Origin: Kappaphycus alvarezii | Taxonomy: Eukaryota > Rhodophyta > Florideophyceae > Gigartinales > Solieriaceae | Length of the DNA stretch: 64,000 nt | NCBI GenBank assembly: GCA_002205965.3 | Contig: NADL03000554.1 | Location: 62,001-126,000 of the forward strand | Direction: 5' to 3' | Shown: piece after piece, positions 1 to 64,000 of the stretch | Layout: the number at the start of each line of letters is the position of its first letter | Numbering within the stretch: position 1 is the stretch's first letter | Translations under genes and position numbers: made by a program | The notes under the pieces: generated by a model | The model's input: only the letters and a program-made list of their open reading frames with translations | Databases searched by the model: none | What the model was told of the DNA's origin: nothing

Positions 1-531
1 TCTGTTTTCCACAGTTTGGAATATGCGTTAGCATATCCTCATTCACTTGCATGAGCTTTTCTATATCCAAATTTGAATCTGATTCATTACAATTGTCTTT
101 AAATTGACTCTGACTATCATATTCACCGTCTGAGGTTTCTGAACCATTATTGAAACCAAAATTGACACTATCAACAGGCGGTGAGACCATATTTTCGGTA
201 AAGAATACATCCCTTGATACAATTAACTTCCTCTCATTCAGTATATAAATCCTGTATGCAGACTCAGCGGCACAGCCGACATGGATACCGTCCCATGTAC
301 GAACATCAAACTTAAATTTTATATACGGCTTGCGTTTCTTAACTTTCACTTTTGATCCAAAAATGCGTGAATTTAAGACTTCTGGTTTAGTGCCATATAA
401 AATCTCATGGGGTGTCTTGTATCCAAACTATTTATGGGTCAATTTTGAAAGAGCTCGGTTCCTGACGTAGTTCATTGTGGATACGGCTTCAGCCTATAAA
501 AATTCACAATCCTCTAGATTATTAATAGTTT
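1..531 (-). pseudogene. Copia 1 polyprotein: integrase tail and linker before reverse transcriptase
   Basis: Continuation of the integrase. The frame contains the characteristic copia stretch with KTPHEILYGTKP, then the VFG-like IFGSKV segment, GYR-like AYRIYILNERKL and ISRDV-like VSRDVFFTEN (about positions 430 down to 190). An acidic, Ser/Asn-rich linker follows. These landmarks normally lie between the DDE core and the reverse transcriptase of copia polyproteins. At least one in-frame stop lies near 430. The strand is open at the window edge, so reverse transcriptase is expected outside. The family call is firm, but exact limits of the domains are not. Confidence 0.75.
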
Positions 532-1383
532 TCAGCTCTGATAAAATAGTCCTGGCTCCTTTAACCAGTGTTCGTTAAGTCTCTCTGCTCTTCCGTTTGA
601 TTTGGGTGAGTATGGAGGAGTTTGTTCATGCACAATGCACTTTCTATCAAAAATATTTTCCAGCTCCCTGGACATGTACTCCTTTCCACCATCAGTCCGG
701 GCGTGCTTGACCTTTTTCTTAGTTATGTTCTTTACAACATCAAATAGAGACCCCAAAGCATTCGGTGCCTCTGAACGGTCTTGTATGAATCTAACCCATG
801 AAGCACCACTAGCATCATCAAGGAACCCTAGAATATATTTCGATCCACCAAGCGATTCCACTCTGGTGGGTTCTACGATATCAGAATGAATTAGTTCCAA
901 GACTTCTCTTGGTCTTTTATCACGACGGAGGTGTGGTACGGTAGACTTTTTCCCATCACAGCATTCAAGACACACACTTGAATTACAATCCTTGACCTTA
1001 TTAAGGCCCTCTACCACATTACGATGTATCATTTGTTTTACAGTATTTTTATTTGTGTGAAAAGATCTTCTGTGCATCGACTTCATGTCGTCATTTGACC
1101 CCTCATTAAGCATGAAAACTTTATCCTTACTAGCAACAGCCCCTGTCAGCTCACAAATTCCATGCCCTTCATTACTTCCAATCATGACAGTGTTAGTACC
1201 TTGTCTATCTATCATCTTAGTAGAACCTCCCAGATATTTAATGCTTACACTTTCCTTTTGTGCCAAGGGCTGTGACACCAGAATTGTTCTGATATCTGGC
1301 ATATGAGCGACTCGATTTAAACGAATAGTCTTCCAATCATCGTCTATATACTGTTTTAGATACACTGTACCATGACCCTTCAC
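532..1383 (-). pseudogene. Copia 1 integrase segment (pre-integrase plus DDE core)
   Basis: A 283-codon open stretch. Residues 1-100 are the protease-to-integrase linker. An HHCC zinc module follows (MHRRSFH with downstream H, then CLECC). The catalytic core comes next: first Asp in LIHSDIV, second Asp in ARTDGGKEY, Glu in SNGRAERLN. The full DDE triad is therefore kept although gag and protease are broken. In copia elements this domain is part of a single gag-pol polyprotein and inserts the cDNA into the host genome. The methionine at 1383 is internal. The homologous frame continues upstream past a TAG stop at about 1400 and downstream past a TAA at 531, so this is one surviving piece of a polyprotein and not a stand-alone gene. 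Confidence 0.85.
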
Positions 1384-1704
1384 TTTAAGTTTCTCAAACT
1401 AGGATACTGTGCTTGTAGTCTTCTCAGCATTTGCTTCTGGTTCAAAGTAAAATAAAGCATCACGTTGATTCGTCATAGGTTGAGTAGCGCAGCTGTCTAA
1501 AAAACATGAAGTACTCATGTCCTCTAATCCAGTACAAAAGGCAACAAATGCTGTGTCATTACTGTCGCCTTCAATTCCATCAGTATTGTTTCTCTCATTC
1601 CTGGCTTTTGCCCTCTCATTTAGACTGCGAATTATTTCCTCAATTTCAGGTGTGGTTTTAAAATGAGGCCTATAATTCTTTGATTCTGGATTCAGGTAGC
1701 AATT
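1384..1704 (-). pseudogene. Copia 1 zinc-knuckle exit and protease
   Basis: Joins gag to integrase. It contains the aspartic protease landmark FLDSCATQPM at about 1510-1480, where copia proteases usually have DSGAT. The catalytic Asp is present, but the following Gly is Cys (GGC to TGC would explain it). A TAG stop lies just before the integrase frame. Protease normally cleaves the gag-pol polyprotein in the particle, and this copy would not produce that polyprotein. Confidence 0.65.
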
Positions 1705-2425
1705 TTAAAACTGATGGCCTCGTTTGCCACAACCATGACAATTTCCACTAAATGGTTTCCGCTTTTTATTGTCCTTTGCAGTGTAGAATTCGTTTGTTTT
1801 ATCTTTGCTACTCCTTCCTTTTATGCTCAGTTCCTCTTCTCTTAGCTCCAACCTGGAGACGGTTTCCTCGAATGACAAATCCATACTGATCTGAAGTACC
1901 GCTTTTGTCACTTCATAATCCTTCCCCAAACCTTTTAAAAGAGCAAACATTTTGTCGTTTGATTCTATTTCATAGCCGCTCAATGCTAGATCATTTTCTA
2001 TTTCACATATTTCTTCAATGTATGACCTAATCGACTGACCTTCCTTCATACTGAGTCTGAACAATGTTGTTCTCAGAGTATACTGGCTTTCTGCAGACTT
2101 GCTTCTTCGCAAGCTCTGTAAAGCACCCAAATCGCTTTAGGATCCCTCTTCTTGCCAATGAAGGCGAATACTTAGAGTCAACATTCAGTAAAATTTCGGC
2201 CAAGCGCTGTTGCTGTAGCCTATGCTCTTTCTTTTTCTTTGACACAACATCCACGGAATCATGCTTTTTAATCTCTGTTTCGAATTCAGGGCCTTCTTCA
2301 ATAAAGCGCCACAAATCACGAGATTCCAAAATAAGGCGTAACTGCAACGCCCACACGGAGTAGTTCTTCTCCGTCAACTTTGCAATCGTATATCTTATGT
2401 TGTTCATCACGGGTTCTGGGCCCAT
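1705..2425 (-). pseudogene. Copia 1 gag
   Basis: Translation starts with MGPEPVMNN directly inside the primer-site sequence (ATG at 2425-2423), followed by the usual copia gag opening (LTEKNYSVWALQLRLILES with a conserved Trp). It is interrupted by a frameshift at about 2145-2115 and continues in another frame as a UBN2-like gag domain (LRTTLFRLSMKEGQSIRSY...). It ends in a zinc knuckle of the CX2CX4HX4C type (CHGCGKRGHQF-stop-NC) in which one of the four spacer codons is TAA. Gag normally packages the element RNA into particles. The frameshift and the stop make this copy inactive. Confidence 0.8.
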
Positions 2426-2430
2426 AACCT
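2417..2430 (-). promoter_or_regulatory. Second (gag-proximal) copy of the copia primer-site sequence
   Basis: Minus-strand GGTTATGGGCCCAG. It is complementary to the anticodon-stem region of eukaryotic initiator tRNA-Met (CTGGGCCCATAACC), which Drosophila copia uses as a half-tRNA primer. It overlaps the gag start codon. A near-identical copy lies 236 bp upstream, directly beside the LTR. Confidence 0.6.
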
Positions 2431-2432
2431 GC

Positions 2433-2652
2433 TGAAAACGTTAACCACTGAGCCACATGCGCTGGCTGTCTAGTGCAACTGAGCGGACCACAACATATAT
2501 ATATCAACACCCCCCTCGCTCAGAGGCACTACTACAAGATGCTTGTCGAGGGATTCAGGGCTTACACAGAGCATTACAGTAACGCCCATACCAAATATCC
2601 AAATCAGTGCACCCAGTGGGACTCGAACACGCGACCACAGCGGCAACGTCAA
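2433..2652 (-). repeat. 220-bp insert between duplicated primer-site sequences, with tRNA-like A-box and B-box blocks
   Basis: The segment is bounded by a 16-bp direct repeat (2417-2432 and 2653-2668, one mismatch). On the minus strand it begins with a B-box-like GTGTTCGAGTCCCACT (about 2633-2618) and ends with an A-box-like GTGGCTCAGTGGTTAACG (about 2459-2442), with a TATATATA run between. This fits a tRNA-derived SINE sequence, but the two boxes are in the wrong order for a single intact SINE. The piece looks circularly permuted, as if taken from a tandem pair. It could be a SINE insertion with a 16-bp target duplication or a recombination at the shared 16-mer. Confidence 0.5.
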
Positions 2653-49521: not shown

Positions 49522-50950
49522 TGATAAGAAAAAATCGGCGAGAATGAGATTTTCAAAACCAATTATTGTACGACGGATATGTTGCAGACAAAAGAATTGC
49601 TACCCAGTATAGTTGTGGGGACAAGAAGAGTTTGATGTGAAGGGATGGTCAAGTGGCTACAAATCAGTACAGAAGAGGAAGTTCTACCACTTATACTCAG
49701 TAAATATCGTATAAAAACGTTTCCTAGGTCAGATATTGACTTTCAACTTCCGAGCTATTCAGGTCCGCACATGAAGCTGTCCGCTAACTTTTTTAACCTC
49801 TCCTCGATGAGGTAGTATACTCAGCTTACATATACTTTTTAGCTAACCCTAAAGTCTCAATCAAGCATATTGAATACCATTGAATGCAATAAAGGGAATC
49901 CTGTGGACGATAAGGAAAACCAATAGATAACCTTAGGATAAATATTCGGATTTCATTCGTGAAATCTCCATTTTCGAGTTTAGATTTAAACAGCTCCTCT
50001 AAAATATCTATATCTCAAATTCAGTCCCTATGAATTTTTTCCAACGTCCCGGAATGATGAATAGCCTCCTCAGACTTATCACTGCCCTCTAATTACTATT
50101 CAGAACCCTTAGACTCCAGTCTTCACCCAGTGGAACAGATAGAAAATACGACTACATACTCACTCTCCCATCGGTCCCTTGCAATAAATCCCCTACGATT
50201 GTACACCAACGGCTCCTGCAGTTTGACATAGTCTTCGTCATTTTTGGATCCTTCCACATCTTCGTCGGCCTCCCGGGCCGACTATACCTCTCTGTATCCC
50301 CCTCTTTCTCCACAAATTTACGTAGAATCTACTTCAGAAGGCGGACTTGGTCCAAATTTGTGGTATAATCGTTGTCGTCAGCTGGCCCATCGGCCATCAA
50401 AGCCAGGCCGTTGATGCAATGCGGGGCTTTGGTTGATTTCTCGATTGTGAGTGACTGTCGGAAGCGTTTCATGTAGATAGAAAGATAAGAAAGTGTGCAG
50501 GTGAGTTGATGGAGTGGTTCATTGAAAGATTGGTGCTTCAACGACGTTGCAATCGAACTTTAAGTTCGCGAATGTTTTTGATAATTTTCACGACCTCGGA
50601 CCAAAACATTGCGAAGCGATGTTGTGACTTTGAAACTGCATGCACTCGGGGCAAAAAGATTGCTTGGCAAAATATCGGAACTAGATTCGGAGGTTGAAAC
50701 GAATCACGGGTTTAAAGGTTTGTTTTCGAAAAAGGATCAAATTTTCAAACGTAAAACAGAAAATAGAGTCGTACGATGAATTTTGATTCATAAGACAAAA
50801 ACGTTTTTAGGAATTCCTCCTTGATAAGAAGGGTAGAAAGATTGGTTGAAAGAGAATGAGGTCAAGGATGGCTCTCGGGGTGACAGAAATAGGAATTTGC
50901 GGAAAGAGCCGTTTTCGTGCGTACAGTTAGCATCAGGCACACGGTTCATT
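49522..50950 (-). repeat. Long-LTR family, copy D (diverged)
   Basis: The 3' end is defined by TGATAAG...AAATCGGCG at 49522, equivalent to TGATAGGGTAAATCGGCG of the complete LTR at 60692. The R1-like core with a worn inverted repeat (TTGACTTTCAACTTC, about 49736) and the CTCAGCTTA...TAAAGTC block (49820-49856) follow, then the C-terminus and N-terminus of the LTR gene. The 5' limit is estimated from the spacing in the complete copy. GGTTCATTTTTTG near 50943 may be the remnant of its end repeats. Confidence 0.6.
49965..50472 (-). pseudogene. LTR-resident acidic-protein gene, diverged copy D
   Basis: Starts MKRFRQSLTIEKSTKAPHCI at 50472 and continues NGLALMADGPADDNDY, aligning with the intact copy (INGLRLAAYGPTDADDY). 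A TAG stop follows at about 50331. Near the other end, in the proper minus frame, DIDILEELFKSKLENG (about 50016-49969) matches the intact C-terminus MDILEELFGSDLENG. The acidic middle is replaced by unrelated or eroded sequence. Preservation of both protein ends in such a diverged LTR suggests that the gene was once under selection. Confidence 0.6.
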
Positions 50951-52340: not shown

Positions 52341-52930
52341 TGATACGGGTAAATTGTCGGGAGAAGAGATACTCAGAACCAACTACCCCAAGAAGGAGGT
52401 TTTGCAAGCGATAAAAGTGCTACCGTGGTAGAGTTGAACGAACAAAAAGGAGTTGATAAGAAAAACAGTTGAGAGGGCTACAAGCAAGTGTAGAGGGGGC
52501 CAGGTCTACCACTGATGCTCTGCGACCAGAGTAAGAAAAATGTTTCTTGGGTCTGAAGTTGACTCTCAACTTCGAACTACTCGGTACTTGACCTGAAGTT
52601 GTCTCCCAACTTGCTTGACCTCCACAAGAGGAAGCAGTTTACTCAGCTTATGTAGGCTTTTTGTCTAACCCTAAAGTCTCAAACAACCGTAACAAGAACC
52701 ATAAAATGCATCAAATGGAATATTATGAACAAGAAAGACTAACAGCAGATAATATTAGCATAAATATCTATATTTATTCCTTAATATCTTATTCCTCTAG
52801 ATCAGCGCCAAAAAGTTCCACTAAAATATCCAAACCTCCAGTGCAGTCCACAAATATTCCTTCCAGTGGTTCACACCAGCTATAATATCTAGATCACTAA
52901 AAATCCTTATTCAGCCCCATGACCAGTGCC
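52341..52930 (-). repeat. Long-LTR family, copy E (3' part only)
   Basis: Begins TGATACGGGTAAATTGTCGGG at 52341 and matches the complete LTR through the inverted repeat GAAGTTGACTCTCAACTTC (52555-52573), the CTCAGCTTATGTAGGC block and the C-terminal part of the LTR gene. Similarity ends at about 52930. It is a 5'-truncated or broken copy in minus orientation. Confidence 0.7.
52789..52930 (-). pseudogene. LTR-resident acidic-protein gene, C-terminal fragment E
   Basis: Minus frame ending at a TAA (52791-52789) reads DCTGGLDILVELFGADLEE, aligned with GDCLDSMDILEELFGSDLEN of the intact copy. The upstream part is missing at the truncation point near 52930. Confidence 0.6.
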
Positions 52931-54329: not shown

Positions 54330-55669
54330 TTTTTTGTTTGAGAATTTTGGTCCTCCTTTTTCAGAAAAGGAAACTTTAGACTCGCGATCCGATTCATCCT
54401 CTAAATGCAGTTCCGATATTTTATCAAGCAGATTTTTAGCAATTATCCTAATCGCATATAAATTCAAAGCTGTGGCATTTTTATTCCGTCCAAGGCCCAG
54501 AAACGTTTTGAATGGGTTGCCCTATTTGAAGTACAAAATCTACGTCGCTGTGGCAACCCCCCGCAATCAACTGCCCCATCGGCTCATCCCTTTTTTTTGC
54601 CTTCAAGATGACCACCCTCCTCACCATCACCAAGTCATCCCAAGGTCGCCGTCCTCTCAACGCTTTGGCCCTGATATAAAATGGTTCAACCGACTGCGAC
54701 GATTATTGTAGAAGGTTGGACCAAAAACGCGTTCGGGAGTGGGTCCGCCGTAACTGCTTCGAACATACTGAAGAGGAGGAGGAAGAGGAGGAAGAGGAAG
54801 AGGAGGTAGAGAAAGAGGAGGTAGAGAAAGAGGAGGAAGAGGAGGAAGGAGGGGAGGATTGCGTGGACCCGTGGGATCCACTAGTGTACAACGGTGGGAG
54901 AGCTCCCATGGAGACCGAAGGGGAGACTGAGGGAGTAATCATGATCTCTGACTCTTATGACGAATATGAAGAGAGAGGTGAAGAGGAGGATGAGAAGGAT
55001 GAGGGGGAGGGAGACATGGAAAGTCCTGGAATAGTGGGAAGGGGCTGAAAAGTATGGACCAGGTGGTCCCGACTCTAGAACCGGATGGGGACATCTTCAG
55101 TGGTCTAGATATTTCGCAGGAGGTAATGGAGATTTCTAAGCCGTTCGCGGAGGTTTGTGGGGACTGCTTGGGTGGTATGGATATTTTGGGGGAAGTTTTT
55201 GCCTCTTATCTAGAAGACTAAGGTATTAAGGAAGAAATCTATATATTTATCCTGATAGTATCTGCTCTTAGTCTTTCTCGTTCACATGATTCCATTTGAT
55301 GCTTTTTATGGTTCTTAGTATGTTTGTTCGAGACTTTAGGGTTAGTCACAAAGTCTGCATAAGCTTAGTAAACTGCCTCCTCTTGTGGAGGTCAAGCAGG
55401 TTGGCAGAAAACATTAACTCAAGTCCTGATTAGTAGGAAGTTGAGAGTCAACTTCAGACCCCAGAAATACTTTCCTTACGCTAGTCAGGGAGCATCAACG
55501 GTAGATTTGGCCTCTTCTATACTTGTTTATATCCCTTTCAACTGTATTCCTTTCTCAACCCTTTTTGGTCGTTCAACAATACCAAGGTAGCACTTTTGTC
55601 GCTTGCACCACATCCTTCTTGGGGTAATTGGTTCTGTGTAACTCTTCTTCCGACAATTTACTCCTAAAA
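54330..55669 (+). repeat. Long-LTR family, copy C (plus orientation, diverged)
   Basis: The gene (54608-55221) and 3' part match the complete LTR. They include the ACTTTAGGG block with a TGCATAAGC in place of the second TATA, the perfect inverted repeat GAAGTTGAGAGTCAACTTC (55437-55455), and GGTAATTGGTTCTG...ATTTACTCC at the 3' end (about 55669). The 5' limit is uncertain. GGTCCTCC at about 54350 may be a remnant of the end repeats. Confidence 0.65.
54608..55221 (+). pseudogene. LTR-resident acidic-protein gene, copy C
   Basis: Starts MTTLLTITKSSQGRRPLNAL and has a TAA at 54677-54679 followed in frame by GSTDCDDYCRRLDQKRVREW. This equals the conserved GPTDADDYIRR...EFVRR block of the intact copy, so the conserved start is at 54608. 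An acidic tract of Glu runs (about 54766-54855) and a second acidic region follow. A frameshift near 55040 separates them from the conserved tail (MDQVVPTLEPDGDIFSGLDI, then MDILGEVF), which ends at TAA 55219-55221. The tail has one Gly-for-Glu change in the DILEELF motif. Orientation is opposite to the other copies, which shows an independent insertion. Confidence 0.7.
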
Positions 55670-57461: not shown

Positions 57462-57984
57462 GACTGCTTCTCCCATTATAAGAATACCTGGTTAACGAAC
57501 CCACGGTTCAGAGGCTGTTTGTTAGCACTGGAGGGTCATGCGAACTATAATAACGAAGACGGTCGGCTGGCTGTCTGGTTAGGAGGTATAGTCATTCGCA
57601 GCCCGATCAGAGAGAAAAAGCAGTAATTAATCGCGGAAAGTTGGCGGAGGAACAGTTTTCAATTGCTGGCATGGATCAGGTTGTCCTGGAGCACATACCT
57701 TTGGAGGAGGTCGACTTCATTACATCGGTACCGGTTTCAGATGGCCCAGCTCCCGCATCTCCAAACCAGAGTGATATGGGGTAAATCGGCGGGGAAGAGA
57801 TCCTCAGAACCAATTACCCTGAGAAGGGGTGTTGCGAGCGACAAAAGTGCTACCGTGGTATTGTTGAACGAACAAAAGGGAGTGTATATAGAAGAGAGTT
57901 GAGAAAGCTACAAGCAAGTATAAAAGGGGCAGGGTCTACCACCGACGCTCTGCGACTAGCGTAAGAAAAAGTTTTCTTGGGTCT

Positions 57985-58003
57985 GAAGTTGACTCTCAAC
58001 TTC
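57985..58003. promoter_or_regulatory. Conserved 19-bp inverted repeat in LTR copy A
   Basis: GAAGTTGA-CTC-TCAACTTC, 8-bp arms and 3-bp centre. It is perfect in five of six LTR copies here, located about 215 bp from the LTR 3' end. It could be a protein-binding site or an RNA hairpin near the transcript start or end. Confidence 0.5.
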
Positions 58004-58211
58004 CTACTACTCGGGACTTGGCTTGAAGTTGTCTGCCAGCTTGCTTTACCTCTCCATGAGGAAGCAGTTTACTCAGCTTATATAGACTTTTGGCTACCCC
58101 TAAAGTCCGAACAAAACTACAGAAGATACCAAGAAATGCATAAAATACTTTGTGTGGACAATATACTCTAAGCAAAAGATACTTAAGAAACTAACAATTA
58201 ATTTGGTCCTC

Positions 58212-58493
58212 TTATTTCCCATTCTCTAAATCAGATCTAAACAACTCCTCTAAAATATCCATGCTGTCCAAGCAGTCCCCACAAATATCTGCGAATGGCT
58301 CACAGCTCTCTATTTCCCCTGGGAGATATCTAGACTACTAAAGATATCTCCATCCGGTTCCATCGTGGGCACAACTTCATCCGTACTCTCTATTCCAGGC
58401 CCCACCAGTCCAACACTTTCCATGCCCCCTGTTCCCTCATCCTCCTCCTCCTCTTCCTCCTCCCCATCCTCTTCCTCCTCTTCCTTCTCCTCA

Positions 58494-58525
<32 letters not shown>

Positions 58526-58840
58526 TTCCTCTTCCTCATCTTCTTCCTCCTCTTCCTCCTCCTCCTCCTCCTCCTGAGCCTCGTACACTAGCTCAGGGGC
58601 TAACCATTCCTCGAAGGACTCCCCGCTCTCCTCCTCGACCTTCTCAGCCTCTCCCGGACTTACCTCCCTCGCTTCTTCTTCTATGAAGAGGCGGCGAACG
58701 AACTCGATGATTTGCTTCTTTGTTTGCCGCCGGATGTAGTCGTCGGCATCGGTTGGCCCGTAGACGGCGAGACGAAGGCCATTGATGGAACGGGAAGGGC
58801 GGTTTTTGGAAATAGGGACAGATGGGCGATGGTTGTTCAT
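58212..58840 (-). pseudogene. LTR-resident acidic-protein gene, copy A (one-base deletion near the end)
   Basis: Starts MNNHRPSVPISKNRPSRSIN at 58840 and follows the intact copy closely. It has the basic N-terminal segment with YGPTDADDYIRR, then SFEEWLAPELVYE, a long Glu/Asp tract (about 58575-58440) and MESVGLVGPGIES. At 58316-58319 there are four C where the intact copy has five. The deletion shifts the frame so that translation ends early at 58310. The homologous tail goes on to TAA 58214-58212. In this copy the sequence upstream of 58840 is out of frame with the gene, which supports the MNN/MSN methionine as the true start. Confidence 0.85.
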
Positions 58841-60902
58841 TGTGATAGACGTTGGGGAACGGGAGCCAATGTAGGGTGTTTTGGGTGTGTGGGGGGAGAG
58901 GGGTGATGAGTAAAATGATCGGGGGCATTTGGAACTTAGAATAAAGGGGTTTAAATAGGCTCCCGGGGCAGGTTCTATAGATTAGGAATAGGTAAAATAA
59001 ATCTGCAAGGGATTTTGCAATAGTGCATTTGCGCCCTTCTTCTAAAAAAGGGCGAATTTGGAGGAGGAGGTAAGCTAAAAGGGAAAAGGGACTTGATTCG
59101 GGGTCGATTCAGAGGGTTAAATACAGTATAAAAATCTAGATAAAATGGAAGTAAATTTGGAAATGACGGTTGGAGAAGTTAGGGGCGGGATCGCTGTAGG
59201 TTGCTGGATTACACGAGGGAGGACCATTTCCTGTATTAAATGAGGGGAGGACCATTTTTGTATTACACAGAGGCCCAACATCGCGTCTCAAACCCCCGAT
59301 CTTTCTGAACAGTCTCTGCCATCTCTAAAGGAGATCTTCGCAACTCACACCCCAGTCATGTCGCATATACCGACCAAGTTCCGTGGTTGTCTAGCAGAGA
59401 CGTATGCAAAGTCGATGGACGATGCAGTGAACGCTTGTCTTGCTGATAATTCACGAGCATCTCAGGCGCTCACAAAAATATTTCTGTTCCCAGCAGTAAT
59501 GCTCACGAACATTCACTCGTCAGATTCCTGCTCAAGTGAATACCGGTGGCACTCTATTACGGACAAAATGAGGAAAGAATAGATATATGGAACGCGGGCA
59601 CTTCAGAACACTATGGGCGCAAGCACTCGACCAGCCCAAACACCGCACCGCACGAGCTCGGTCCACTTCGGACCAGCAACAGGTCAATGTAAAACGGGCG
59701 ACAAAACTGGCCAAAGAAGGTGCGTACGGAAAGGCTGCACAAGCTTTGCGCTCGCTAGGCGTTCTACCAGCTACCAGTGATGTAATCGATGCCCTTATCG
59801 ATAAACATCCCCAGCAGGCCCCCGATGAAACAACTCCAGTCAGGGGAACATCTTCTACCAACTACAGTTTCCGACCGATCACTGAAGACGAAGTCCTTGG
59901 CGGTATCAGGGCTTTTAAACCAGGATCCTCTCCCGGAGGCTCAGGTGTAAAGCCTTGCCACCTGGTAGAATTGCTAAGATGTCCATCCTCATCGGGGAAT
60001 TCAGGCTTTTTGGCAGCTCTTACGAGACTTGTTAATGTTCTAGCAACTGGTAAAGCACCAGCCGTTCTCGCTCCTTGGATCGCCGGTGCTCCACTTACCC
60101 CGTTGGCGAAGAAGGACATGTCGCCCAGGCCAATCGCCGTTGGGGAGACGCTGCGCAGGTTAGTCGGTGATTGCTTAATGAAGCGAGTGTCCGAGAAGGC
60201 GGCAGACTACCTCCAACCTCTCCAAGTGGGTATCGCCACAAAGTCGGGTACCGACACAGTCGTGCACGGAATCCGACGAGTCGTTCAGGAGTACGGCAGT
60301 AACCCAGCATATGGGTTATTGACTGTCGATCTCAAGAACGCTTTAATATGTGCAGCAGACCCGCTTGTATGACTGCGGTGAGACAGCTATTCCCGGAGTT
60401 ACAGCCTTGGGTCTCATATTGCTATGCAAACGAGCCCGCATTCCTATGGATAGGTAGTCACACAAAAGAAGAGTCTGCGGGACCCAACAGGGAGGCAATC
60501 TTGGAGGCCTCCTCTTCAACCTGGTGCTGCACCCTATTATCCTCAAAATACAAGACCTCTTCAGTTCAGAAGAAGGGAGAACAGAGACTTGGCAAAGTTG
60601 TTACTTCAACTGTGGTACCACGATGACGGGTACATTATCGGGCGCCACGACCAACTCGTCAAAGCCGTCGAAGTACTTCGCTCCGTGGATGTGATAGGGT
60701 AAATCGGCGGGGAGGAGATCCTCAGAACCAATTACCCTGAGAAGGAGGTGTTGCGAGCGACAAAAGTGCTGCCGTGGTATTGTTGAACGAACAAAAGGGA
60801 GTGTATATAGAAGAGAGTTGAGAAAGCTACAAGCAAGTATAAAAGGGGCAGGGTCTACCACTGACGCTCTGCGACCAGCGTAAGAAAAGTTTTCTTGGGT
60901 CT

Positions 60903-60921
60903 GAAGTTGACTCTCAACTTC
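60903..60921. promoter_or_regulatory. Conserved 19-bp inverted repeat in the 3' LTR
   Basis: GAAGTTGA-CTC-TCAACTTC, identical to copy A. It lies about 75 bp downstream (minus strand) of the second TATA element. Confidence 0.5.
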
Positions 60922-60993
60922 CTACTACTCGGGACTTGGCTTGAAGTTGTCTGCCAACTTGCTTGACCTCTCCATGAGGAAGCAGTTTACTCA

Positions 60994-61002
60994 GCTTATA
61001 TA
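60994..61002 (-). promoter_or_regulatory. Second TATA element of the LTR (TATATAAGC)
   Basis: Lies 130 bp downstream of the LTR gene stop and about 300 bp from the LTR 3' end, where the promoter for a genomic retrotransposon transcript would be expected. It is kept in copy A (58076-58084) and altered in copies C, D and E. Confidence 0.45.
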
Positions 61003-61130
61003 GACTTTTGGCTACCCCTAAAGTCCGAACAAAACTACAGAAGATACTAAGAAATGCATAAAAATACTTTGTGTGGACAATATACTCTAAGCAAAAGATA
61101 CTTAAGAAACTAACAATTAATTTGGTCCTC

Positions 61131-61754
61131 TTATTTCCCATTCTCTAAATCAGATCCAAACAACTCCTCTAAAATATCCATGCTGTCCAAGCAGTCCCCA
61201 CAAATATCTGCGAATGGCTCACAACTCTCTATTTCCCCCTGGGAGATATCTAGACTACTAAAGATATCTCCATCCGGTTCCATCGTGGGCACAACTTGAT
61301 CCATACTCTCTATTCCAGGCCCCACCGGTCCAACACTTTCCATGCCCCCTGTTGCCTCATCTTCCTCATCCTCCTCCTCCTCCTCCTCCTCATCCTCTTC
61401 TTCCTCATCCTCATCCTCCTCATCCTCCTCATCCTCCTCATCCTCCTCATCCTCCTCATCCTCCTCATCCTCCTCATCCTCATCTTCCTGATCCTCGTAC
61501 ACTAGCTCAGGGGCTAACCATTCCTCGAAGGACTCCCCGCTCTCCTCCTCGACCTTCTCAGCCTCTCCCGGACTTACCTCCCTCGCTTCTTCTTCTATGA
61601 AGAGGCGGCGCACGAACTCGATGATTTGCTTCTTTGTTTGCCGCCGGATGTAGTCGTCGGCATCGGTTGGCCCGTAGGCGGCGAGACGAAGGCCATTGAT
61701 GGAACGGGAAGGGCGGTTTTTGGAAATAGGGACAGAGGGGCGAAGGTTGCTCAT
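61131..61754 (-). CDS. LTR-resident acidic protein, intact copy (207 aa)
   Basis: An intact gene inside the 3' LTR of a gypsy element, in the sense orientation. I do not recognise the protein. Residues 1-55 are basic (MSNLRPSVPISKNRPSRSIN, then YGPTDADDYIRR and IIEFVRRLF). Residues 56-85 are mixed acidic, about 88-137 are almost only Asp/Glu in a DEE repeat, and 150-207 form a conserved acidic/hydrophobic tail (VVPTMEPDGDIFSSLDIS, CGDCLDSMDILEELFGSDL). The open frame extends 29 codons upstream to 61841, but that part is out of frame in copy A, so 61754 (context TCACAATG) is preferred. A TATTTAAACC element lies about 107 bp upstream with a CT-rich leader between. A basic head plus an acidic Asp/Leu/Phe tail resembles a transcriptional activator, but a histone-binding or RNP role is equally open. 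Confidence 0.75.
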   Translation of the reverse strand: MSNLRPSVPISKNRPSRSINGLRLAAYGPTDADDYIRRQTKKQIIEFVRRLFIEEEAREVSPGEAEKVEEESGESFEEWLAPELVYEDQEDEDEEDEEDEEDEEDEEDEEDEEDEDEEEEDEEEEEEEDEEDEATGGMESVGPVGPGIESMDQVVPTMEPDGDIFSSLDISQGEIESCEPFADICGDCLDSMDILEELFGSDLENGK

Positions 61755-61860
61755 TGTGATAGAAGTTGGGGAACAGGAGGCAATGTGGGGTGCTTTGGGT
61801 GTGTGGGGGAGAGGGGTGATGAGTAAAATGATCGGGGGCATTTGGAACTTAGAATAAAGG

Positions 61861-61870
61861 GGTTTAAATA
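61861..61870 (-). promoter_or_regulatory. Promoter element of the LTR gene (TATTTAAACC)
   Basis: TATA-like sequence 107 bp upstream of the preferred start, followed by a CT-rich leader (CCCCTCTCCCCCACACACCC, about 61815-61796). The same arrangement is present in copy A at 58951-58960. Confidence 0.55.
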
Positions 61871-62109
61871 GGCTCCCGGGGCAGGTTCTATAGATTAGGA
61901 ATAGGTAAAATAAATCTGCAAGGGATTTTGCAATAGTGCATTTGCGCCCTTCTTCTCAAAAAAGGCGAATTTGGAGGAGGAGGTAAGCTAAAAGGGAAAA
62001 GGGACTTGATTCGGGGTCGATTCAGAGGGTTAAATACAGTATAAAAATATCTAGATAAAATGGAAGTAAATTTGGAAATGACGGTTGGAGAAGTTAGGGG
62101 CGGGATCGT

Positions 62110-62239
62110 TGTAGGTTGCTGGATTACACGAGGGAGGACCATTTCCTGTCTTACGTGAAGGGAGGACCATTTCCTGTATTACGTGAAGGGAGGACCATTT
62201 CCTGTATTAAATGAGGGGAGGACCATTTTTTGTATTACA
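62110..62239 (-). repeat. Tandem subrepeats at the 5' end of the LTR
   Basis: Four units of about 28 bp with the core GGAAATGGTCCTCCC and a TTCACGTAATACA-type spacer. Solo LTR copy A has only two. Such terminal subrepeats often contain enhancer sites. The copy-number difference explains most of the length difference between the two LTRs. Confidence 0.7.
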
Positions 62240-62254
62240 CGCCCCCTTTCTCAA
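62240..62254 (-). promoter_or_regulatory. Polypurine tract of the gypsy element
   Basis: Minus-strand TTGAGAAAGGGGGCG directly before the LTR start TGTAATAC. A purine run at this position primes plus-strand DNA synthesis in LTR elements and fixes the LTR boundary. Confidence 0.75.
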
Positions 62255-62272
62255 GGCGAACGTCCCGGGTCG

Positions 62273-63271
62273 TCACTGCTCTTCTTCTGCTTCCGTTAGT
62301 GTTCGCTGTCTTATTGATAAGATGTATGGTCTCTCAAACGGGTACGGATGCAACTGATTACCAATATGATGCTCTAAAAAGTAGGTTCGCATTACTGGTA
62401 CCTCACTTTGTAGCATAGCCTCATATATTGGTTTGATCACATCGAGGTGGGGTTGAATACATTCTTCTTCCGTGACTCTTCCGAATCTTCCAAGAGTGAA
62501 AAAATATATGTGATATGCAAACTCTTCTGGAAGATGCCGGAGGAATGGATGTCGATAAGAAAAGAAGACGCGCATCATCAAGAACGAATCTTCGTAAGAT
62601 AAGTGCGGTCCATGTAGCGCCCTAAAACATAAACAGATGCTTATCATGAAATAAGAAATGACCTGCGCATCGTTCGCATCCTCGGAGATATTGCGCAGCC
62701 AAAAAGATAATCTTCTTCTTCCGACTGTATGCTGTGCATGGTTGTGAAGCAGAGCTAGAGATGAAGTTGTGGTGGACGGTCCCGATGAATGGCCGCGACC
62801 AGCTCCTGACGTACTGGGACCTGCACGAGGTCCTCTCGGGGGACGACCGGAACCTCTTCTGGGCGGGTTGTTGTCTCCTGAAGGTCCTCCTCTGGTCATC
62901 ATCACTGCTTCAGGAGGATCCTCGCCGCCTCCAACGTTCCCAATTTGTGGCGGAGAAACGTAAGGTTCCCATAGAGGATACGGGACCAGCCTGTATTCCA
63001 TATCCGGGGGTAAGGCGTAACCTCTCAGTCGCACGTCTTGGTTGTTCTTGAGAAATACGTAAATTGGACGGATAATATTCAGATACGTTTGCGACAAGTC
63101 TCCAGCAGCTACCATTCCATATCTTCCTATAGAGTAATGATATATTACCTCCACAAACTCTGGACCTGCTTCCGTGAACCTTCCGTTTTGGAATGAAAAT
63201 AGAACTCTTATTAATAGTCGGAAATCTTCTTGGGTAGCAATGGTCCGTTCAACGTACGAAAACATAGGCAT
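62273..63271 (-). CDS. Accessory ORF of the gypsy element: two copies of an unknown domain
   Basis: A 332-codon intact frame after integrase, one frame back (-1) from pol. Residues 1-106 and about 211-320 are homologous. Shared features in order are a Phe-rich RV-x-FS segment (RVLFSFQNGRF / RVFFSYRHPFL), a helix with G-R-Y/F-G (HYSIGRYG / FFTLGRFG), R/K-P-I-Y, and Y-P-x-x-x-P-Y (LVPYPLWEPY / LHPYPFERPY). Between them lies a Gly/Pro/Arg/Ser-rich linker of about 105 residues. No signal peptide or membrane span is evident, so it is not an obvious envelope protein. I do not recognise the domain. Similarity of domain 1 to domain 2 continues upstream into the pol frame (ICLCFRTLNGPL vs ICLCFRALHGPH), so domain 1 probably begins before 63271 and is reached through a frameshift. 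Confidence 0.7.
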   Translation of the reverse strand: MPMFSYVERTIATQEDFRLLIRVLFSFQNGRFTEAGPEFVEVIYHYSIGRYGMVAAGDLSQTYLNIIRPIYVFLKNNQDVRLRGYALPPDMEYRLVPYPLWEPYVSPPQIGNVGGGEDPPEAVMMTRGGPSGDNNPPRRGSGRPPRGPRAGPSTSGAGRGHSSGPSTTTSSLALLHNHAQHTVGRRRLSFWLRNISEDANDAQVISYFMISICLCFRALHGPHLSYEDSFLMMRVFFSYRHPFLRHLPEEFAYHIYFFTLGRFGRVTEEECIQPHLDVIKPIYEAMLQSEVPVMRTYFLEHHIGNQLHPYPFERPYILSIRQRTLTEAEEEQ

Positions 63272-64000
63272 ATATTAATGTAGAAATGGATGATTACGTG
63301 GAGTTCGTAGTAGTCCCGCGTAACCGAGATGATCCATTCCCAGGCCCTTTTTCCTCCCATAGGAATCATTCTATAGTTAAAGATGAGTATGCCCCGTGGT
63401 TGCGCATAGTCCTGTGTGAGAAGGAATTCTTCAGGCCTCTGATGGTAAGGGACCAGACGACGTGCATGGATGGCCCTCCTTGATCTCTTCCCTGAGCTTG
63501 AACAGAGCTGATAGTGCGGGTGTCTTTCCTCCGTGACGATGCAAGGGTTCGAGTACTTGGTTTGGAAGGCCGGCCACTTCACAGCCTGCTGCATTGCTTT
63601 TCCATGTACTACAAGTACTTTAGAGCCAACTGAAAAGGTTCTGACTGCAGGTTCTGCATCCTTATTTCTTGTCTGTGTTAGCGCGCGGTGTGATCTCCAG
63701 CCTTCGGTGGCCAGTAGTTCAACTTCCCTACTCTCTTCATCGATAATATTTGTTTCCATGTCTCTCTGTAACATTCTAGGAGCCCTTCCGTACATTAGCT
63801 CGAATGGTGAGCGTCCATTTCTTCCTCTTCTTCGACGGTAGCCGTATAACACTTTTGGTAAGGCATCTTCCCACTGGATTTCATTCTCCAACATAGTTTT
63901 CGATATTGCTCGTTTGATGGTTCCAACCATCCTCTCCGCTTTCCCGTTGGACATAGGAGCGTATGCGAGAACGGTCTTCAGCTGAATCCCTTTCTCTTCC
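63211..64000 (-). CDS. Gypsy pol, integrase C-terminal half (partial at the right edge)
   Basis: Open from the window edge. It starts in the catalytic core with LAYAPMSNGKAERMVGTIKR, where the Glu of NGKAER is the third residue of the DDE triad. WEDALPKVLYGYRRRRGRNG and SPFELMYGRAPRM follow, the usual end of the Ty3 integrase core. A C-terminal module KVLVVHGKAMQQAVKWPAFQ and IHARRLVPYH corresponds to the GPY/F-type region. The Met at 63954 is internal. Integrase would insert the cDNA. The 5-bp CAGAG duplication around the solo LTR of the same family is the footprint expected of it. The frame ends at 63211, overlapping the accessory ORF by 61 nt. Confidence 0.85.
   Translation of the reverse strand, partial: EEKGIQLKTVLAYAPMSNGKAERMVGTIKRAISKTMLENEIQWEDALPKVLYGYRRRRGRNGRSPFELMYGRAPRMLQRDMETNIIDEESREVELLATEGWRSHRALTQTRNKDAEPAVRTFSVGSKVLVVHGKAMQQAVKWPAFQTKYSNPCIVTEERHPHYQLCSSSGKRSRRAIHARRLVPYHQRPEEFLLTQDYAQPRGILIFNYRMIPMGGKRAWEWIISVTRDYYELHVIIHFYINICLCFRTLNGPLLPKKISDY

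Follow-up and report, generated by a model that had tools for sequence, protein, structure and literature searches.

Long terminal repeats (LTRs) are usually taken as non-coding control DNA, and a stretch of the genome of Kappaphycus alvarezii raises the question of what a complete protein-coding gene is doing inside one. The stretch analysed here, called the window, comprises 64,000 nucleotides (C550:62001-126000, contig NADL03000554.1) in an assembly of 336 Mb and 884 contigs. Close to its end a gypsy-type retrotransposon has its 3' LTR, which wholly encloses an intact sense-oriented gene, as a preliminary description of the sequence had claimed. To judge from comparison of its copies and relatives, it is a real, old accessory gene residing in the LTRs of a Ty3/gypsy-type lineage. 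The features concerned are as follows, in window positions.

60692..62239, minus strand: 3' LTR of the gypsy-type element, 1548 bp, TG...CA, recognised by its LTR ends, polypurine tract and partner LTR.
61131..61754, minus strand: LTR gene, 207 amino acids plus stop, in element sense, complete and wholly inside the LTR.
61494..61754, minus strand: conserved N-terminal part of the gene, 87 codons; a helix is predicted with low confidence at residues 31-58/59.
61356..61490, minus strand: acidic Asp/Glu tract, of varying length and with frequent frameshifts.
61131..61349, minus strand: conserved C-terminal part, 72 codons, better conserved among the relatives compared than any other piece.
61863..61870, minus strand: P1, TATTTAAA, putative promoter box for the LTR gene, located 116 bp upstream of its ATG.
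60995..61003, minus strand: P2, CTATATAAG, putative TATA box beyond the end of the gene, at which the genomic RNA may start.
62240..62252, minus strand: polypurine tract GAGAAAGGGGGCG, adjoining the 3' LTR (before the LTR in element sense).

The preliminary description had called the element gypsy-type and had noted its TG...CA LTR and the adjoining polypurine tract, and the gypsy-type assignment held. The search for the 5' LTR that it proposed led to a partner outside the window at C550:130318-131859, which is 99% identical to 60692-62239 and is followed by a primer-binding-site-like sequence, TTTGGTACTC. Between the two LTRs, frames read by eye encode gag with two zinc knuckles, protease, reverse transcriptase (RT), RNase H and integrase. 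Of 3831 candidates, 2604 proved homologous to this RT at E <= 1e-40, the best of those listed bearing PF00078, PF17919 and PF17917; the Ty3/gypsy assignment comes from these homologues, and the integrase-like frames downstream of the RT were recognised by eye. In the family we found the primer-binding site, polypurine tract, TG...CA LTRs and 5-bp target duplications that mark Ty3/gypsy elements. The window's own copy is without matching duplications; since the 5-mers flanking its two LTRs differ (GAATG and CATCC), it is not a clean single insertion. Its gag is apparently spread over two frames (by eye), and in its 5' LTR the gene loses its frame at about codon 90.

The gene recurs across the genome. 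A DNA search with the window LTR gave 43 matches, among them 40 near-full LTR copies at 95-100% identity. We laid out 74 LTR copies, namely the copy at 57771-59266 of the window and 73 fetched ones, of which 8 came from the DNA search, 26 from a protein search (4 repeats dropped) and 38 from further down the protein list, the last being the 5' LTR L040. They comprise 32 3' LTRs (polypurine tract before), 24 5' LTRs (primer-binding site after), 4 with both marks, 4 with neither and 10 solo LTRs whose 5-bp duplications are exact; 9 of the 10 solo copies have the full open reading frame (ORF). The earlier proposal that the gene occurs in full-length and solo copies alike was thus borne out. Across the whole laid-out set, the ORF runs to its usual end in 63/74 copies. 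Three duplication-matched LTR pairs differ by 2, 1 and 0 substitutions, and therefore the family is very young. When the 72-residue C-terminus served as query, it was 100% identical in all 150 scored copies (of 6438 first-look candidates); together with the 40 near-full LTRs, this lies far beyond chance. Two arrangements were seen in passing: L023, L028, L065 and L070, with a polypurine tract before and a primer-binding site after, are the middle LTRs of LTR-internal-LTR-internal-LTR chains, and L063 and L068 (C678:760650-766950) lie 2.5 kb apart with nearly alike flanks, an apparent tandem duplication including a solo LTR.

The window itself holds four further LTRs of this or related families.

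57771..59266, minus strand: 95.4% identical member of the same family, a solo LTR with the 5-bp duplication CTCTG; its ORF stops early, at 176 amino acids.
54487..55666, plus strand: decayed LTR from an older, related family, in which the gene remains are frameshifted yet recognisable and have TATTTGAA upstream.
52341..52875, minus strand: decayed LTR of a related family, 3' part, with C-terminal gene remains.
49532..50028, minus strand: the oldest relic of a related LTR within the window, with 67-70% identity and gene traces upstream.

Selection on the protein is visible between subfamilies. The LTR of the C500 subfamily is 87.8% identical to that of the main family over the alignable part, and the ratio of nonsynonymous to synonymous substitution rates (dN/dS) between the two is 0.57 in the N-terminal part, 0.40 in the C-terminal part and 0.49 combined (159 codons); against C849 it is 0.46. 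Main family and C500 differ by 14 amino-acid changes, while random placement of the same 32 substitutions gave 23.5, with 0/4000 replicates as low. Base differences between them amount to 7.7% and 5.6% in the N- and C-terminal parts of the ORF, versus 13.3% in the 5' flank (from LTR position 158) and 8.9% in the 3' flank. A codon model of 18 distinct sequences from 65 copies, a protein-selected set, yielded an omega of 0.36 (0.43 with kappa free), omega = 1 being worse by 7.6 log units, and an omega of 0.31 without the C500 clade.

Conservation extends to older relatives. Contigs C713 and C782 carry intact ORFs of 199 and 204 amino acids, which share the N-terminal M.NLRPS, DDYxRR...VRR, acidic tracts, the C-terminal DQVVPTLEPDG.IFS...ISQ and MDILGELFGSD. 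Measured against the window family, their C-terminal part has a dS of about 1.0 and a dN of 0.20; the N-terminal part, less surely aligned, has a saturated dS. Between the two, dN/dS is 0.41. Both match the relic at 54487-55666 over nearly full length at 80-82%, and because of this match they are taken as LTR copies. The C-terminus of that relic, used as query (150 scored of 5581 first-look candidates), found itself and 149 other places at 70-87% identity, none of which overlaps the 150 main-family copies (compared by eye); an open frame of at least 180 amino acids was present in 24/150. Five of these matches, at C68:259170-281409, lie about 4.4 kb (or double) apart, perhaps an array of shorter related elements. 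By these measures the ORF is conserved as a protein, in sets that are partly protein-similarity picks. The copies compared thus place the gene inside 5', 3' and solo LTRs, with a protein conserved in a sister subfamily and in older relatives, and with the P1 box retained.

This box had been described before as TATA-like and 107 bp upstream of the gene; it is present and kept in diverged relatives, at a distance of 116 bp. The motif TATTT(A/G)AA lies 116 bp before the ATG in the main family, 97 bp in C500 and C849, 117 bp in the solo copy at 57771, and 84 bp in C713 and C782, and the relic at 54487-55666 has TATTTGAA near 54523. In simple shuffles of the upstream stretch (three cases), exact TATTTAAA arose at a frequency of 0.0006-0.0026. 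Among main-family copies, 72/73 have TATTTAAA and 71/73 the downstream CTATATAAG. In the mechanism we propose, P1 would drive a short mRNA for the LTR gene and P2 would start the genomic RNA, on which gag would be read first instead of the LTR ORF; with the genomic RNA starting at P2, the gene would sit in the unique 3' region (U3), as does sag of mouse mammary tumour virus (MMTV). The strongest alternative has a single main promoter, P1, so that the genomic RNA would begin before the ORF, and the ORF would be its first cistron, in the repeat region (R) and not in U3. It agrees with the P1 box being kept in all six copies compared and with the lack of a TATA box at the P2 site in the three oldest relics. 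Cap-dependent translation of gag would, on the other hand, be hindered by a long first ORF, and across the relics no part of the LTR is better conserved than the stretch running from P2 to its end, as expected of R and the unique 5' region (U5); neither point is decisive, and we hold the single-promoter arrangement to be possible, though unlikely.

The product is predicted to be disordered for the most part; the predicted helices are a basic one towards the N-terminus (DDYxRR...VRR) and an acidic-hydrophobic one towards the C-terminus (MDIL(E/G)ELFGSD), and between them runs a long acidic tract. Transcriptional activators commonly have acidic tracts and acidic-hydrophobic helices, and the sequence IVISDSSDEDE of C782 presumably resembles a SUMO-interacting motif. 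The product may be a nuclear protein aiding the element, most likely in LTR activation or counter-silencing; with modest confidence, we consider it probably a nuclear regulator serving the element. Profile searching, which the preliminary description had recommended for the 207-residue protein, brought no Pfam family above cut-off, and the Pfam and PDB matches fell mostly in the acidic tract. We take Pfam to include a Sag family; none was among the matches at E <= 1, a result obtained without direct comparison with Sag. The whole-protein homology search gave one match (2.8e-4), which is 50% identical but covers 4% of the query and was put down to chance; the search scored only the 7981 candidates that had the most words in common with the query, and acidic words may have crowded out others. 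Residues 1-88 had no homologue among 29 candidates from 5.8 billion proteins, and 600 pattern matches in IMG/VR included no relative. No homologue was found outside the genome in these searches, in which the C-terminus was not run alone against the protein collection. The C713 protein weakly resembles DUF2293 (PF10056) at residues 20-54 (E 0.0064, 17.0 bits versus a curated cut-off of 25). The other three N-terminal pieces tested matched 0 families, no piece reached the curated cut-off for DUF2293, and a search of the genome for a DUF2293 gene gave no match, but its control was equally silent; the resemblance is a lead only.

Taken whole, our explanation is that of an LTR-resident gene between P1 and P2, with a nuclear helper product and with selection acting via the replicating element, and on balance we lean towards it. 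Several points besides that on P2 weigh against it. The nuclear role is proposed because of composition and motifs, and the AlphaFold models are poor (mean pLDDT, the predicted local distance difference test, 47.7 and 48.3), mostly without structure apart from helices at 31-59 and between 179 and 204. C713 and C782 were picked by C-terminal similarity and a long open frame, and their LTR setting would follow from the window relic, the flank read being too short to reach LTR ends. Most fetched copies were chosen by protein similarity, a ranking that favours intact ORFs and lowers apparent dN; piece-wise queries (the C-termini and an internal stretch) were used for this reason. In the C-terminus-selected set, the full gene frame (at least 220 amino acids) is open in only 55/150 copies, a proportion not distinguishable from one third (P = 0.22). 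In fourteen solo or unplaced copies, 51 changes are nonsynonymous and 23 synonymous, near the unselected ratio of about 2.6-2.9:1; they are mostly protein-similarity picks, and L063 and L068 among them seem to be one duplicated insertion. Full-length copies, with few changes, show 18:3, above the unselected ratio, and changes common to two or more copies stand at 7:2.

Because dN/dS is below 1 between subfamilies, but solo and full-length copies show 51:23 and 18:3, selection is visible between subfamilies but is not seen among the young copies. Single-copy changes stand at 24:19. Full-length copies carry 0.0007 substitutions per site in the ORF against 0.0032 in the flanks; for solo copies the values are 0.0108 and 0.0171. 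It seems that selection acts through replicating elements, while solo copies drift nearly neutrally. The comparison does not support the earlier inference of free-standing units in so far as it would have solo LTRs keep the gene under selection.

The near-neutrality of the solo copies is also what would be seen if the ORF were a non-working passenger, or a frame in purine-rich repeats that is open only through the youth of the copies. In line with this, 47/65 compared ORFs are identical outside the acidic tract, and in 95/150 C-terminus-selected copies the frame is closed upstream, leaving at most 166 amino acids. The preliminary description had held that frequent stops together with a neutral dN/dS would count against the gene: the closed frames answer to the first half of this, and the dN/dS below 1 between subfamilies runs counter to the second. 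Both unique ends are conserved in relatives with dS about 1 or saturated, which largely refutes the passenger. One-base indels in 73 copies number 0 in the N-terminal and 6 in the C-terminal part versus 75 and 59 in the flanks, a count from a biased set, since L045, with a one-base indel in its N-terminal part, is not included. We consider a passenger very unlikely.

Still less probable, in our view, is that the acidic repeat is a hypervariable switch, in which slippage would turn the gene on in about one third of the copies and off in the others. Nowhere does the ORF vary more than in the acidic tract, and 55/150 in frame is near one third. The 11/74 laid-out copies without the usual end comprise 10 broken ORFs and L045, with an early one-base deletion; all ten typed breaks contain at least one one-base indel, and in the copy at 57771, outside the typed set, the early stop coincides with a one-base alignment gap. 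One-base deletions are, however, also typical of long-read assembly errors. Among the 40 near-full LTRs of the DNA search, compared by eye, 23 were open, 14 broken and 3 undetermined; 23/40 departs from one third (P = 0.0014), in a search that ranks by likeness to the window's intact copy. Least probable of all is that the conserved stretch acts in cis, as DNA or RNA (an enhancer or a packaging signal), and is open by accident, as the conserved non-coding R-U5 block of the same LTR might suggest: in the C-terminal part of the older relatives synonymous change far exceeds nonsynonymous change (dS about 1.0, dN 0.20), a cis element would not spare amino acids, and we rejected both this candidate and a chance ORF on these values.

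Other parts of the LTR, the element and the window were recorded as follows.

62107..62239, minus strand: 5' end of U3, with short tandem repeats of period about 27-28 bp (by eye); their number varies, and the C500 subfamily has another sequence in their place.
62240..64000, minus strand: 3' end of the element's internal region, with the integrase end (by eye) and a subsequent ORF.
62273-63271 and 63211-63999, minus strand: further reading frame after integrase, with a twice-repeated domain by eye (ICLCFR.L.GP ... FTLGRFG / YSIGRYG) and no Pfam match.
59572-60372, plus strand: RT fragment beside the LTR, judged by eye to be of LINE (long interspersed nuclear element) type.
1-2440, minus strand: element with interrupted frames at the window start, judged by eye to be of copia type.

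In L079 and L080 of the C500 subfamily, the 5' end of U3 is wholly different (TGTTAGGCGC... versus TGTAATACAA...), with the gene and R-U5 retained; as far as the two sequences tell, this swap is a modular LTR replacement. In a comparison of a 1-kb internal stretch from the reading frame after integrase (40 scored of 2139 first-look candidates), 38/39 other scored copies were one base longer than the window's, and the copy on C635 was equal in length.

Known systems resemble this one in part. The gag with zinc knuckles, protease, RT, RNase H, integrase, primer-binding site, polypurine tract and 5-bp duplications are those of Ty3/gypsy LTR retrotransposons, whereas the long LTR with its own gene and the extra ORF after integrase set the present element apart. 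Lentiviral nef and foamy virus bel/bet are accessory genes that reach into the LTR, starting outside and overlapping U3 only; here, in contrast, the whole gene and its promoter box lie within the LTR. The parallel with MMTV sag, drawn already in the preliminary description, is sound in that there, too, a protein gene lies in the LTR, in U3 (PMC12548423). MMTV is a betaretrovirus of mice whose Sag is an immune superantigen, unlike the gypsy-type retrotransposon and the acidic, predicted-disordered protein described here. Among the titles and abstract openings listed from the open-licence PMC literature, none names a gene wholly inside a gypsy-type LTR, and those that mention an "LTR ORF" are mostly MMTV papers. 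Within that literature, an LTR-resident gene is a type known from MMTV sag, and the gypsy-type case appears to be new.

More tentatively, and short of calling it probable, we suggest an ancient, diversified LTR-gene family whose product regulates in trans in the nucleus and whose every LTR supplies a promoter for the gene. Hundreds to thousands of LTRs, solo copies included, would then form a dispersed regulatory gene family, some copies of which may be switched by repeat slippage, in a Ty3/gypsy lineage outside the vertebrate retroviruses. A gene that stays in LTRs until synonymous sites are near saturation would be left behind by the recombination that deletes the element core, and repeat annotation would discard hundreds, perhaps thousands, of its copies as non-coding LTR. 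The family may thus provide a second system, besides MMTV, for asking what an LTR gene does for its element.

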